Assembly (NCBI RefSeq): GCF_001547895.1
Contig: NZ_AP014627.1
Location: 2,731,501-2,795,500, forward strand
From: Pseudomonas sp. Os17
GTDB lineage: Bacteria; Pseudomonadota; Gammaproteobacteria; Pseudomonadales; Pseudomonadaceae
Reading direction: 5' to 3'
Length of the DNA stretch: 64,000 nt
The notes below the pieces were generated by a model that saw nothing but the letters and a program-made list of their open reading frames with translations, was not told the origin of the DNA and did no database searches. Shown here in pieces: positions 28,227-31,877 of this stretch. The translations under genes were made by a program, and so were the position numbers. The first letter of the stretch is position 1. Each line of letters opens with the position of its first letter.

Positions 28227-28877
28227 TCAGGGCCGCGCCGCGCGAATGGCCTCGCGGATTTCTTCCTGCAACTGGCGAGCGCCGCTGCAGGCCGGGTCGG
28301 CGGGGCCGTACTTGCAGGATTTATCCAGCACCTTCAGCGCCAGGTCGGCGTCGGGCGCTACGCCGATGCCCCGGCTCAGGTGGAAGCCGTACATGGTGCA
28401 GGCCCAGGGATCATTCAGCTCACAGGCCTTGTTGAAAGTCTGCACCGCACAGTGCCGGGTAGCCTGGTTGTCGGCGTCGGCGGTGAGCATGCCGGCGGCG
28501 CGGTTGGTGCACCCGGAAACCAGCCCCAGGCTGCAGGCGCGCTGGTACAGCGGTTCATAGCCTGCGGCGGGGCCTTTGGCCTGTTGCAGGGTGGTGGCCA
28601 GCCAGTAGCAATCGTTGCCGTCGCCGGCTTCGCAGCGCTGCAGGCAGGCGCCCAGCTGCTCCGGGGTTTCGCAGCGGTTGGCCTGCGTGGCCCGTGTCGC
28701 GGTCCTGGCCGGCATGTTGTCGCTGGGGCATTGCCTGGCCTGGGCTTGCCAGTCTTGCCGGGCCTGGACCTTGGCGGAAATCCCCTCGACCAGGGCCGGG
28801 TCCACTGGCGCGGCGCTGGCCGCGAAGGTCGACAGCCATACGGCGCCAAGCAGGCAGAAACGATAGAAACGGTGCAT
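28227..28877 (-). CDS. Secreted Sel1-like, cysteine-rich protein
   Basis: A 216-residue protein with a signal peptide (MHRFYRFCLLGAVWLSTFAA, cleavage after SAA). The mature part is rich in evenly spaced Cys and contains Sel1/TPR-like units, such as CLQRCEAGDGNDCYWLATTL, LYQRACSLGLVSGCTNRAAG and FNKACELNDPWACTMYGFHL. Such repeats form disulfide-stitched helical solenoids that bind other proteins in the periplasm. The ATG at 28877 has AAGGA upstream; an in-frame start at 28895 would spoil the signal peptide. It is single-gene and convergent with the DUF1624 gene. The specific role is unknown. Confidence 0.82.
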   Translation of the reverse strand: MHRFYRFCLLGAVWLSTFAASAAPVDPALVEGISAKVQARQDWQAQARQCPSDNMPARTATRATQANRCETPEQLGACLQRCEAGDGNDCYWLATTLQQAKGPAAGYEPLYQRACSLGLVSGCTNRAAGMLTADADNQATRHCAVQTFNKACELNDPWACTMYGFHLSRGIGVAPDADLALKVLDKSCKYGPADPACSGARQLQEEIREAIRAARP

Positions 28878-29024
28878 GGACGGGGTCCTTTCCAAAGGGA
28901 GGGGGAAGCGGGGGCGTATCTTAGGGGCTTTCTGCCCTGGTTGCTGGTGGCCGGCGGGCTGTGCCGAGATTTTTTTCGACGTCTACCTGCCAAGTCCCTT
29001 GTGGGCCCGGGGTGGTACTCTGTA

Positions 29025-29040
29025 CTGTATATAAAAACAG
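29025..29040 (+). promoter_or_regulatory. LexA (SOS) box
   Basis: CTGTATATAAAAACAG fits the gamma-proteobacterial LexA consensus CTG-N10-CAG, with the preferred TATATA-rich centre. It ends 15 bp before the start codon at 29056, ideally placed to block transcription. Confidence 0.88.
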
Positions 29041-29055
29041 TATCAGGGCCTTGCC

Positions 29056-30276
29056 ATGCAATTGATCGACAAGCTGAGCATCCTCGCCGACGCCGCCAAG
29101 TACGACGCTTCCTGCGCCAGCAGCGGCGCGCCCAAGCGCAGCTCGGAAGGCCGAAGCGGGTTGGGCTCGAGCAATGGCATGGGCATCTGCCACAGCTACA
29201 CGCCGGACGGGCGTTGCGTCTCGCTGCTCAAGGTGCTGCTGACCAACTTCTGCCTGTATGACTGCCAGTACTGCGTCAACCGCCGCTCCAGCGATGTGCC
29301 CCGGGCACGCTTCAGCCCCGAGGAAGTGGTGCGCCTGACCCTGGATTTCTACCGGCGCAATTGCGTCAGCGGGCTGTTCCTCAGCTCCGGCATCATCCGC
29401 TCGGCGGACTACACCATGGAGCAACTGGTGCGGGTGGCCCGGCTGCTGCGCGAGGAGCACGAGTTTCGCGGCTACATCCACCTCAAGACCATCCCCGACG
29501 CCGACCCGCTGCTGATCGAGCAAGCCGGGCGCTATGCCGACCGCCTCAGCGTCAATGTCGAATTGCCCACCGACCAGGGCCTCAAGGCCCTGGCCCCGGA
29601 AAAACACCTGGGCTCGATCAAGCAGGCCATGGGCACCATCTATACCGGCGAGCAGACCGTGCTCAACGAACCCCGGGCGCCGCGTTTCGCCCCCGCCGGG
29701 CAGAGCACCCAGATGATCGTCGGTGCCGACGACACCGATGACAGCACCATCCTCCACAGCGCCGAGTCGCTGTACGGCAACTTCCGCCTGCGCCGGGTCT
29801 ATTACTCGGCGTTCAGCCCGATTCCCGACAGCCCGAAAAGCGTGCCCCTGGCCGCGCCGCCGCTGATGCGCGAGCACCGCCTGTACCAGGCCGACTTCCT
29901 GCTGCGCGGCTATGGCTTCAGCGCCAACGAACTCTTCAAGGGACCGGGGCACTTGGCCCTGGATATCGACCCCAAGCTGGCCTGGGCCCTGGATAACCGC
30001 AGCCTGTTTCCCCTGGACCTGAACCGCGCCGAACCGGCGCTGATCTCGCGTATTCCGGGGATCGGCCTGCGCACCACCCAGCGCCTGGTGGAACTGCGCC
30101 GCGAGCGGCGCATCCGCTTCGAGGACCTGGCGCGCATGCGCTGCGTGCTGAGCAAGGCCAAGCCGTTCTTCATCACTAGCGACTATCACCCGCAGCAGGC
30201 GGAAACCAGCAGCGCGCTGCTCTATCAGCAACTGCGGGACCGGCCGCAACCGCAGCAGATGGGGCTCTGGGGATGA
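29056..30276 (+). CDS. Putative DNA modification/repair radical SAM protein
   Basis: A 406-residue protein of the radical-SAM family linked to a uracil-DNA-glycosylase-type partner (TIGR03916-like). The iron-sulfur cluster motif CLYDCQYC (CX3CX2C) lies near residue 71, followed by the conserved NRRSSD and SGIIRSADYTMEQLVRVARL segments. A C-terminal helix-hairpin-helix-like stretch (ISRIPGIGLRTTQRLVELR, about 335-353) fits DNA binding. A LexA box sits directly upstream, so it should be induced by DNA damage. Its stop overlaps the next gene's start by 4 bp. The chemistry, and whether it repairs or modifies bases, is not established. Confidence 0.92.
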   Translation: MQLIDKLSILADAAKYDASCASSGAPKRSSEGRSGLGSSNGMGICHSYTPDGRCVSLLKVLLTNFCLYDCQYCVNRRSSDVPRARFSPEEVVRLTLDFYRRNCVSGLFLSSGIIRSADYTMEQLVRVARLLREEHEFRGYIHLKTIPDADPLLIEQAGRYADRLSVNVELPTDQGLKALAPEKHLGSIKQAMGTIYTGEQTVLNEPRAPRFAPAGQSTQMIVGADDTDDSTILHSAESLYGNFRLRRVYYSAFSPIPDSPKSVPLAAPPLMREHRLYQADFLLRGYGFSANELFKGPGHLALDIDPKLAWALDNRSLFPLDLNRAEPALISRIPGIGLRTTQRLVELRRERRIRFEDLARMRCVLSKAKPFFITSDYHPQQAETSSALLYQQLRDRPQPQQMGLWG

Positions 30277-31166
30277 TCAGCCTGGATTGCGACGACTTGT
30301 TCGACACCTGGCGCCAGCAGGCACGCTGGCTGCTCAGCCACTCCATCGACCCGAGCCGGGTCAGCTGGGCCGGGACCCGGGAGGCCGACCTGTTCGCCAG
30401 CGACGAGAGCTGCCCCGAACAGCCGGGGCCCTTTCGCGCGCGCATTCCCCAGGCCCTGCTGGAGCTGTTGCAGCGAGCCGCCTGCTACCGCGGCGAGCAG
30501 CGCTGGAGCCTGCTCTACGAGGTGCTGTGGCGGGTCAGCCATGGCGACCGCACGGCCATGCTCAGCGGCGATCAACTGGGCAGCGAGTTGCAGCGGCGGA
30601 TCAAGCAGGTGGACCGCGAGGCCCATCACCTGCATGCCTTCGTGCGATTTGTCCGGCTGCCCGAGGGCCGCTCGCGCCTGGCCGAGCAACCCGAATACGT
30701 GGCCTGGCACGAGCCGGCCCACGACATCCTGGCCCACGCCAGCCGGCACTTCATCGGACGCATGGGGCGCCACCGCTGGATGATTGCCACGCCCCGGGAC
30801 GGGGTGTACTTCGATGGCGAGCAACTGCACCACCAGCGCCATTGCCCCCGTGGCTGGCAGCAACTGGCCCAGGCCGGCGACGACCCCGGGAGTGAGCTGT
30901 GGCTGGCCTATTACAGCCACATCTTCAACCCGGCGCGGCTCAACCCCAGGGTCATGCAGGGGCATTTGCCGACCCGGTTCTGGAAGCACCTGCCGGAGGG
31001 GCCGCTGATTCCGGCGCTGATCAGCGAAGCGCGCCACGGCAAGCAGCGCGACGGCCAGGCCAGCCAGGTGGCAGCGCGGCCAGGCAAGCGGATCGCTCAG
31101 GTGCGCAGTGATAGCGCTGGGCAGACGCCAGGGCCTTCCCTGGCAATGCGCGGCTTTGAACAATGA
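30273..31166 (+). CDS. TIGR03915-family putative DNA repair protein (radical-SAM partner)
   Basis: A 297-residue protein matching the family always found beside the radical-SAM gene (TIGR03915-type). Recognisable pieces are LLYEVLWRVSHGDRTAML, VDREAHHLHAFVRFVRLP, WHEPAHDILAHASRHFIGRM and the C-terminal FNPARLNPRVMQGHLPTRFW. In many genomes this domain is fused to a uracil-DNA-glycosylase-like domain. Here the protein ends soon after the conserved part with a low-complexity tail, and no glycosylase domain is present. It overlaps the radical-SAM gene by 4 bp and so shares LexA control. It probably acts with it on damaged DNA; the mechanism is unknown. Confidence 0.9.
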   Translation: MISLDCDDLFDTWRQQARWLLSHSIDPSRVSWAGTREADLFASDESCPEQPGPFRARIPQALLELLQRAACYRGEQRWSLLYEVLWRVSHGDRTAMLSGDQLGSELQRRIKQVDREAHHLHAFVRFVRLPEGRSRLAEQPEYVAWHEPAHDILAHASRHFIGRMGRHRWMIATPRDGVYFDGEQLHHQRHCPRGWQQLAQAGDDPGSELWLAYYSHIFNPARLNPRVMQGHLPTRFWKHLPEGPLIPALISEARHGKQRDGQASQVAARPGKRIAQVRSDSAGQTPGPSLAMRGFEQ

Positions 31167-31178
31167 GGCAGGCAGTCA

Positions 31179-31877
31179 ATGGATGACGGTGTGGATGACG
31201 GCAAGGGCATTACCGAGGAGTTCTGGTCGAAGGCAGTGACTGACGACGCCAAGATGATGTGGCGGGTGGGCAGCCGCGGCGTGACCTTCCTGGCGGCGCT
31301 GCTGCTGCCCAAGACCGGGTTCAAAGTCGTGGACATCGCGGTTGGAGTGCTGACCATGCTGATCCCCTTGCTGGTGATCGAGACCCAGAGGGCCTATTCG
31401 AAGTTTTCCCCAGGGTTCCTGGCCTGGGTGGTTCGCATCAGTGTCTTTGCCAGTGGTGTGGCCATGGCCAGCCTGGGGTTGGTGATTTACGCCTGGGTAG
31501 TTGGGCCTGTGGTATCGGGGGTCGGCCTCGCCTTTTTTCAACAGACAGTCAGTCTTGGCGGGTACGGGAACAAAGGGGTTGAGTTCGTTGTGTTCTGGTG
31601 TATCGCGATAGTCACTGCGATGGGGGTGATACACGCGGTGATCAAGCAGTTTCGCGAGCTGAAGATTTTTGAACTTGTTTATCACCTGCCACGCAATCGA
31701 ATGGAGTGGCTCATGCAGGGGCGACCGCTGCGAGCCAGCGACTGGCCGATGTTCGTCTGGTTCGAACTCTGTGTGCTGATCACGAGTTTTCTCTACACCT
31801 TGATGGCGTCCCGGGCTGCACTGCTGGTGGTGGATGGAACGCAACAGGTGCTGATGTCGTTCGGTATCAGCCTCTGA
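31179..31877 (+). CDS. Hypothetical multi-pass membrane protein
   Basis: A 232-residue protein I do not recognise. It has an acidic N-terminus (MDDGVDDGKGITEEFWSKAV), then four or more hydrophobic segments (about 34-65, 82-110, 128-150 and 195-215), with a basic stretch (KQFRELKIFELVYHLPRNRM) between the third and fourth. GC content is visibly lower and codon use less biased than in the neighbours, a possible sign of transfer. It begins 12 bp after the DNA-repair gene and may be the third gene of the SOS-controlled operon. No function can be assigned from sequence. Confidence 0.75.
   Translation: MDDGVDDGKGITEEFWSKAVTDDAKMMWRVGSRGVTFLAALLLPKTGFKVVDIAVGVLTMLIPLLVIETQRAYSKFSPGFLAWVVRISVFASGVAMASLGLVIYAWVVGPVVSGVGLAFFQQTVSLGGYGNKGVEFVVFWCIAIVTAMGVIHAVIKQFRELKIFELVYHLPRNRMEWLMQGRPLRASDWPMFVWFELCVLITSFLYTLMASRAALLVVDGTQQVLMSFGISL

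Follow-up and report, generated by a model that had tools for sequence, protein, structure and literature searches.

A LexA-type operator conserved before a radical-SAM/DUF4130 gene pair of Pseudomonas sp. Os17 with a predicted role on damaged DNA

The genome of Pseudomonas sp. Os17 is a single contig of 6.89 Mb (NZ_AP014627.1), and a stretch of 64,000 nucleotides of it (positions 2,731,501 to 2,795,500, here called the window) carries two overlapping genes preceded by a putative SOS operator. The first open reading frame (ORF1) encodes a radical S-adenosylmethionine (SAM) protein that is a full-length member of TIGR03916, scoring 530.4 bits (cut-off 343.5), and the second (ORF2) encodes its partner, which scores 201.1 bits to TIGR03915 (cut-off 112.25) and 118.6 bits to the Pfam domain DUF4130 (PF13566, cut-off 27). 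No uracil-DNA glycosylase (UDG) domain was found in ORF2 by the Pfam scan, and no match to TIGR03914 is present in the Os17 genome. A consensus LexA box 15 bp before the radical-SAM gene, a 4-bp overlap with the partner and an HHH-like tail on the radical-SAM protein had all been described in the original prediction, made from the letters of the window, and all three were recovered: the box CTGTATATAAAAACAG ends 15 bp before the ATG of ORF1 (29056), the ATG of ORF2 and the TGA of ORF1 share four base pairs, and the helix-hairpin-helix (HhH) is detected, though with a Pfam HHH_3 match (E 4.7e-4, 20.6 bits) below the threshold of 27. The box is the sole match at three or fewer mismatches across the window, and 100 shuffled sequences gave a mean of 0.04 matches, with a match in 4 of the 100. 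The coordinates are collected in Table 1.

Table 1. Features of the radical-SAM/DUF4130 locus, in window positions unless stated otherwise, and a second LexA-type box of the Os17 genome.
Feature	Position	Strand	Basis
LexA box CTGTATATAAAAACAG (SOS operator)	29025-29040	match on +	perfect match, conserved before homologues
Radical-SAM gene ORF1, TIGR03916 rSAM_link_UDG, 406 aa	29056-30276	+	NCBIfam and Pfam matches, AlphaFold2 model
N-terminal region with three extra invariant cysteines (C20, C45, C54) and H46	29113-29217	+	alignment of homologues
CX3CX2C radical-SAM cluster motif (C66, C70, C73)	29251-29274	+	alignment
Helix-hairpin-helix, residues 320-352, presumed DNA contact	30013-30111	+	sub-threshold HHH_3 match; invariant R332, P334, G335, G337
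QMGLW, beta-clamp-binding-like C-terminal peptide, residues 401-405	30256-30270	+	motif, homologue counts
ATGA overlap of ORF1 and ORF2	30273-30276	+	sequence reading
Partner gene ORF2, TIGR03915/DUF4130, 297 aa, without UDG domain	30273-31166	+	NCBIfam and Pfam
DUF4130 domain of ORF2, residues 75-242	30495-30998	+	Pfam
LexA-type box CTGTATGCGCATACAG before PA0069-family gene (L001:1532-2587)	L001:1501-1516 (genome 56479-56494)		family match

By itself the half-site pattern CTGTN8ACAG is weak evidence for an SOS operator. It occurs exactly at 41 sites in the Os17 genome, compared with 25 for the reversed control pattern, indicating that many of the sites are background, as would be expected if the box were a chance match and the pair lay outside LexA control. 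That explanation is hardly credible here, since the position is conserved before the homologues in several operator dialects, far above tiled control windows, and it is this conserved place that lifts the box above chance. Homologous loci were taken from the same genus (30), from the rest of the family, order or class (24), from other classes of the phylum (66) and from a set of 80 named loci that by title are mostly Bacteroidota, and 11 further loci from the phylum draw were added (10 same-genus and one of another class). Boxes were counted up to 100 bp before the start, with tiled windows of the loci as controls. In the same genus all 30 loci have the box with at most one mismatch and 21 have it exactly (29 and 1 of 1140 control windows, respectively), and the added loci gave 10/10 and 5/10, so that the whole same-genus set stands at 40/40 with at most one mismatch. 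An exact box of the CTGT-N8-ACAG type precedes 19 of the 24 loci from the rest of the family, order or class (control 1/1167), and GAACN7GAAC or GTTCN7GTTC is present in 65 of the 66 loci from other classes (control 3/2889) and in the added locus, 66/67 in total, with class names that for part of the phylum-sample loci were assigned by inference. According to the accessible part of PMC8565304, GTTC-N7-GTTC is the LexA motif of Alphaproteobacteria. The named loci show CTAAN5TTAG in 23/80 (control 14/6738) and two or more copies of GGAN5TCC in 16/80 (control 3/6738), and at least one of either motif in 39/80 (control 143/6738). The box and the assumed start codon overlap in four loci. The predicted operator is thus one whose sequence differs by clade and whose position is kept, and SOS control of the pair through LexA, strongly supported by this comparative evidence, can be regarded as nearly certain. 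The search upstream of homologues that had been suggested together with the original prediction in this way strongly supports its claim of direct LexA control.

The Psychrobacter, Moraxella and Acinetobacter loci and locus L035 carry no known SOS box, which is expected if LexA is missing there. Psychrobacter and Moraxella are not known to have LexA. For Acinetobacter, the absence of LexA is stated in the accessible part of PMC3978071. The copies in L125-L129 (Psychrobacter, Moraxella) are 74-90% identical to that of L035, and on the tree L035 itself clusters with three rows from Bacteroidota; these copies look like products of horizontal transfer. The three closely related f32 loci L074, L081 and L085, also without a known box, share a palindrome GGTCTCATCCAATGAGACC shortly before the start, in L081 as a one-sided variant, and this is possibly another operator or a terminator. 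No SOS motif of the types tried is found in Chryseobacterium (L130-L141), where most loci have a TCAATTTTGGAACTAATTTTGAA-like sequence before the gene that could be an undescribed SOS operator.

Fifteen of the 41 genomic CTGTN8ACAG sites were examined with their neighbouring genes, the box of the pair being outside these fifteen, and five of them are located 10 to 43 bp before genes with a link to SOS or DNA repair. Boxes precede lexA by 10 bp, a gene for an SRAP peptidase by 27 bp, the gene of a YebG protein by 43 bp and a gene with a weak, below-cut-off S24/UmuD-like match by 18 bp, and the palindromic LexA-type box CTGTATGCGCATACAG lies 15 bp upstream of a second radical-SAM gene, of the PA0069 family (NF033668). 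For three of the other ten boxes the neighbours were scanned, and no SOS gene was found among them (YceD; Tgt; a family-less gene beside an auxin-efflux-type gene). An ORF without an NCBIfam match, 487 codons or more in length, starts 39 bp after the box CTGTATGTATATACAG (L004:1501-1516, genome 1011562). The Os17 genome also has a second lexA-like gene at 4333625-4334224, with 187.6 bits to TIGR00498.

TIGR03916 is the only NCBIfam model that ORF1 matches at E 0.001, and the protein has the CX3CX2C motif and partial TIM barrel of the radical SAM superfamily. The AlphaFold2 model has a mean predicted local distance difference test (pLDDT) score of 85.3 and matches the radical-SAM fold; a sequence search of the PDB gave nothing useful. 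In all 200 homologues the residues C20, C45, H46, C54, C66, C70 and C73 are invariant, and C20, C45, C54 and H46 are also invariant in the best 120 proteins listed by the profile search, whereas C20, C45 and C54 are absent from all 120 listed proteins of a sister HhH radical-SAM family (Gemmatimonadota and others; P0121-P0240). The HhH residues R332, P334, G335 and G337 do not vary among 46 aligned homologues, nor among 240 proteins, namely the 120 family and 120 sister proteins as listed. In lipoyl synthase an auxiliary cluster is bound by three extra cysteines that precede CX3CX2C. ORF1 has three invariant extra cysteines before CX3CX2C, in a stretch modelled at low confidence. C20, C45 and C54 might hold a second Fe-S cluster, used as in lipoyl synthase, and the enzyme might insert sulfur into DNA bases or otherwise modify them with no repair of lesions; we consider this quite improbable. 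In the reading preferred here the three cysteines would instead perhaps carry a second metal centre used on damaged bases, and radical chemistry on DNA is somewhat better than an even prospect.

The C-terminus of ORF1 ends in a peptide resembling those of beta-clamp clients, which carry a QL[SD]LF-like clamp-binding peptide in an unstructured tail. QMGLW is a variant of this consensus, and residues 402-406 have a pLDDT below 50 in the model. A clamp-type C-terminus is found in 175 of the 200 homologues; among the other ORFs in these loci 14 of 1138 have one, and among 187 partner proteins none does. Tethering of the radical-SAM protein to the beta sliding clamp through its last residues is likely. 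Such a tail would also suit an accessory of the fork or of translesion synthesis, by which the pair handles the clamp or fork during mutagenesis and repairs no base itself. The invariance of the seven cysteine and histidine residues in 200/200 homologues speaks for catalysis, and the accessory role is judged unlikely.

The radical-SAM gene has a DUF4130 ORF downstream of it, in the same orientation, in 30/30 same-genus, 89/90 phylum-sample and 78/80 named loci, and all 11 added loci contain one. A fold search with DUF4130 gave weak matches only, and the last 37 residues have block-mean pLDDT values of 56 to 64. The occurrence of a UDG domain is far more variable: an ORF with this domain is present in 2/30 same-genus loci, 12/24 loci from the rest of the family, order or class, 58/66 loci of other classes and 0/80 named loci, and in the added loci it was found in 1/10 of the same genus (3/40 in total) and in the one of another class. 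A pattern search detected a UdgX-like KRRIH-type loop in 64 of 73 long-tailed partners, a loop that is unique to UdgX according to the accessible part of PMC10359453, where the precise physiological role of UdgX is described as largely unknown. The kept loop, the UDG-domain ORFs outside the genus and the base-excision label that the operon carries in the accessible part of PMC8565304 would all suit a UDG-based base excision repair, in which uracil that SOS polymerases incorporate or leave behind is removed by the partner, with the radical-SAM protein in an accessory role. However, TIGR03914 is absent from the Os17 genome, the domain is rare in the genus and missing from the named loci, and a quick tree of 64 radical-SAM proteins shows 8 changes in its state, of which at least 4 fall on well-supported branches, so that this explanation appears rather unlikely. 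Since the domain is absent here, in 37 of 40 same-genus loci and in all 80 named loci, the core of the system, as far as gene content can tell, is radical SAM plus DUF4130, and the UDG looks like an optional add-on. Of the 40 same-genus loci, L009, L010 and L232 have a UDG half, which looks as if it were decaying in the genus: L009 has lost the UdgX loop, L010 has an altered one, and in L232 the UDG half reaches a low score of 121.5 bits.

In one sample TIGR03916 is present in 30/36 genomes of the genus and in 0/21 from other families of the order, while other families of the order do have matches in the draw over the phylum, where 103/397 genomes score above the cut-off. Spread of the pair by plasmids was rejected, as 142 of the 158 matching plasmid records are predicted to be non-mobilizable. 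Phage cargo was also rejected, the 10 matching records of the phage collection all being below 60% identity; eight, labelled only 'Bacteriophage sp.', are unannotated records of faecal origin and two are 'Acinetobacter phage' with the gene annotated. A defence system was rejected as well: at E 0.01 PADLOC gave no match to ORF1 or ORF2. The third gene at 31179-31877 and the divergent gene at 28227-28895 were rejected as operon members, as among the 200 loci each was found only in L033, with the 30 same-genus loci stopping no more than about 600 bases past the pair.

Taken together, these features suggest the following scheme. LexA bound at 29025-29040 would block transcription, and cleavage of LexA driven by RecA after DNA damage would release the operon. 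The radical-SAM enzyme would bind DNA by its C-terminal HhH, and its last residues would tether it to the clamp, which should direct it to replication forks or gaps, docking sites of the SOS polymerases as well. The CX3CX2C cluster would make a 5'-deoxyadenosyl radical that, perhaps together with a second metal centre on C20, C45 and C54, may attack the damaged base, while DUF4130, the constant partner, probably presents the damaged strand. Where present, the fused UdgX-type domain may cap the uracil or abasic product, and as it is missing in the Os17 genome the core chemistry should need no UDG. The account that we favour by a small measure is that of a radical enzyme induced by SOS, tethered to the clamp and active on damaged DNA at forks. 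The DHH/RecJ/Cdc45 superfamily has a DHH-DHHA1 fold with metal-binding motifs, and in a bolder and only tentative version a replisome-tethered enzyme with a second metal centre would revert or rewrite the damaged base at stalled forks, with DUF4130 as a degenerate RecJ/Cdc45-like strand handler and the UdgX half as an optional cap. The undescribed repair chemistry proposed in the original prediction is plausible as an inference from the missing UDG domain, the extra cysteines and the clamp-type tail.

Several observations count against this account. The search for a sigma-70-like promoter next to the LexA box was negative, no box of the tried types precedes 41 of the 80 named loci, and an exact box is missing in 6 of the 90 phylum-sample loci (L035, L037, L083 and the three f32 loci). 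Residues 20-54, with the extra cysteines, have a pLDDT below 50, and the second metal centre is for this reason a guess from conservation. QMGLW, the form of the genus, departs from the clamp consensus, and 25 of 200 homologues lack the clamp pattern, which occurs in only 30 of the 120 listed sister proteins. The radical-SAM family is also dispensable, as follows from its patchy presence (missing from 6/36 same-genus and 21/21 other-family genomes).

Few SOS-controlled genes of unknown chemistry recur across phyla, in our view. The finding of several operator dialects (a gamma-type palindrome, an alpha-type direct repeat and two Bacteroidota motifs) before the same gene indicates that selection probably acts on the induction of the pair by damage. 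The clamp-type tail hints at where the enzyme may act and the extra cysteines are residues to mutate, so the annotation 'putative DNA repair' becomes experimentally testable, which bears also on the role of UdgX. As the version without UDG implies, the base-excision label in print does not describe the core function.

The SOS link of the gene pair is already known in other phyla. The accessible part of PMC8565304 describes a two-gene COG1573-COG4277 operon of Bacteroidetes as SOS-regulated and as a putative base-excision system, and cites an SOS-controlled UDG-based base-excision system reported earlier for Verrucomicrobia and Alphaproteobacteria. For Streptomyces a LexA-bound 'Radical SAM protein' (vnz_31145) appears in the accessible part of PMC9380542. 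No listed title or abstract opening on the pair in Pseudomonas was found in a search that left most subscription papers outside, so regulon studies of the genus may hold the SOS link, and in the same literature no listed title or abstract opening on a clamp motif in the pair was found. The accessible parts of PMC5435343 and PMC5554334, with Pseudomonas data, contain no gene attributable to the pair, and those of PMC1839093 and PMC10776899 added nothing. Neither the UDG-less core nor the C20/C45/C54 triad of the pair was found in the literature searched, where several searches covered only part of their matches.

Compared with known systems, ORF1 is identical in domain make-up to TIGR03916, the putative DNA modification/repair radical SAM proteins, which by inference correspond to COG4277. 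The PA0069 family is also radical SAM, and its Os17 member likewise has a LexA-type box at the same distance, but ORF1 belongs to TIGR03916 alone among the NCBIfam models. The sister HhH family keeps the cluster cysteines, H142, the HhH residues and the glutamine aligned with Q401 in 120/120 listed proteins, and differs in its lack of the triad and in its less frequent clamp-like pattern; DUF4130 is absent in L223, the one locus examined. ORF2 shares the DUF4130 half of the TIGR03915/DUF4130 proteins fused to a UdgX-type UDG (TIGR03914), without the UDG half. The Bacteroidetes operon likewise combines a radical-SAM gene and a partner, and its SOS operator lies immediately upstream, whereas the Os17 pair has a CTGT-N8-ACAG operator and no UDG domain; as no UDG-domain ORF is present in the 80 mostly Bacteroidota loci, the COG1573 label of that operon may stem from the shared DUF4130 half.
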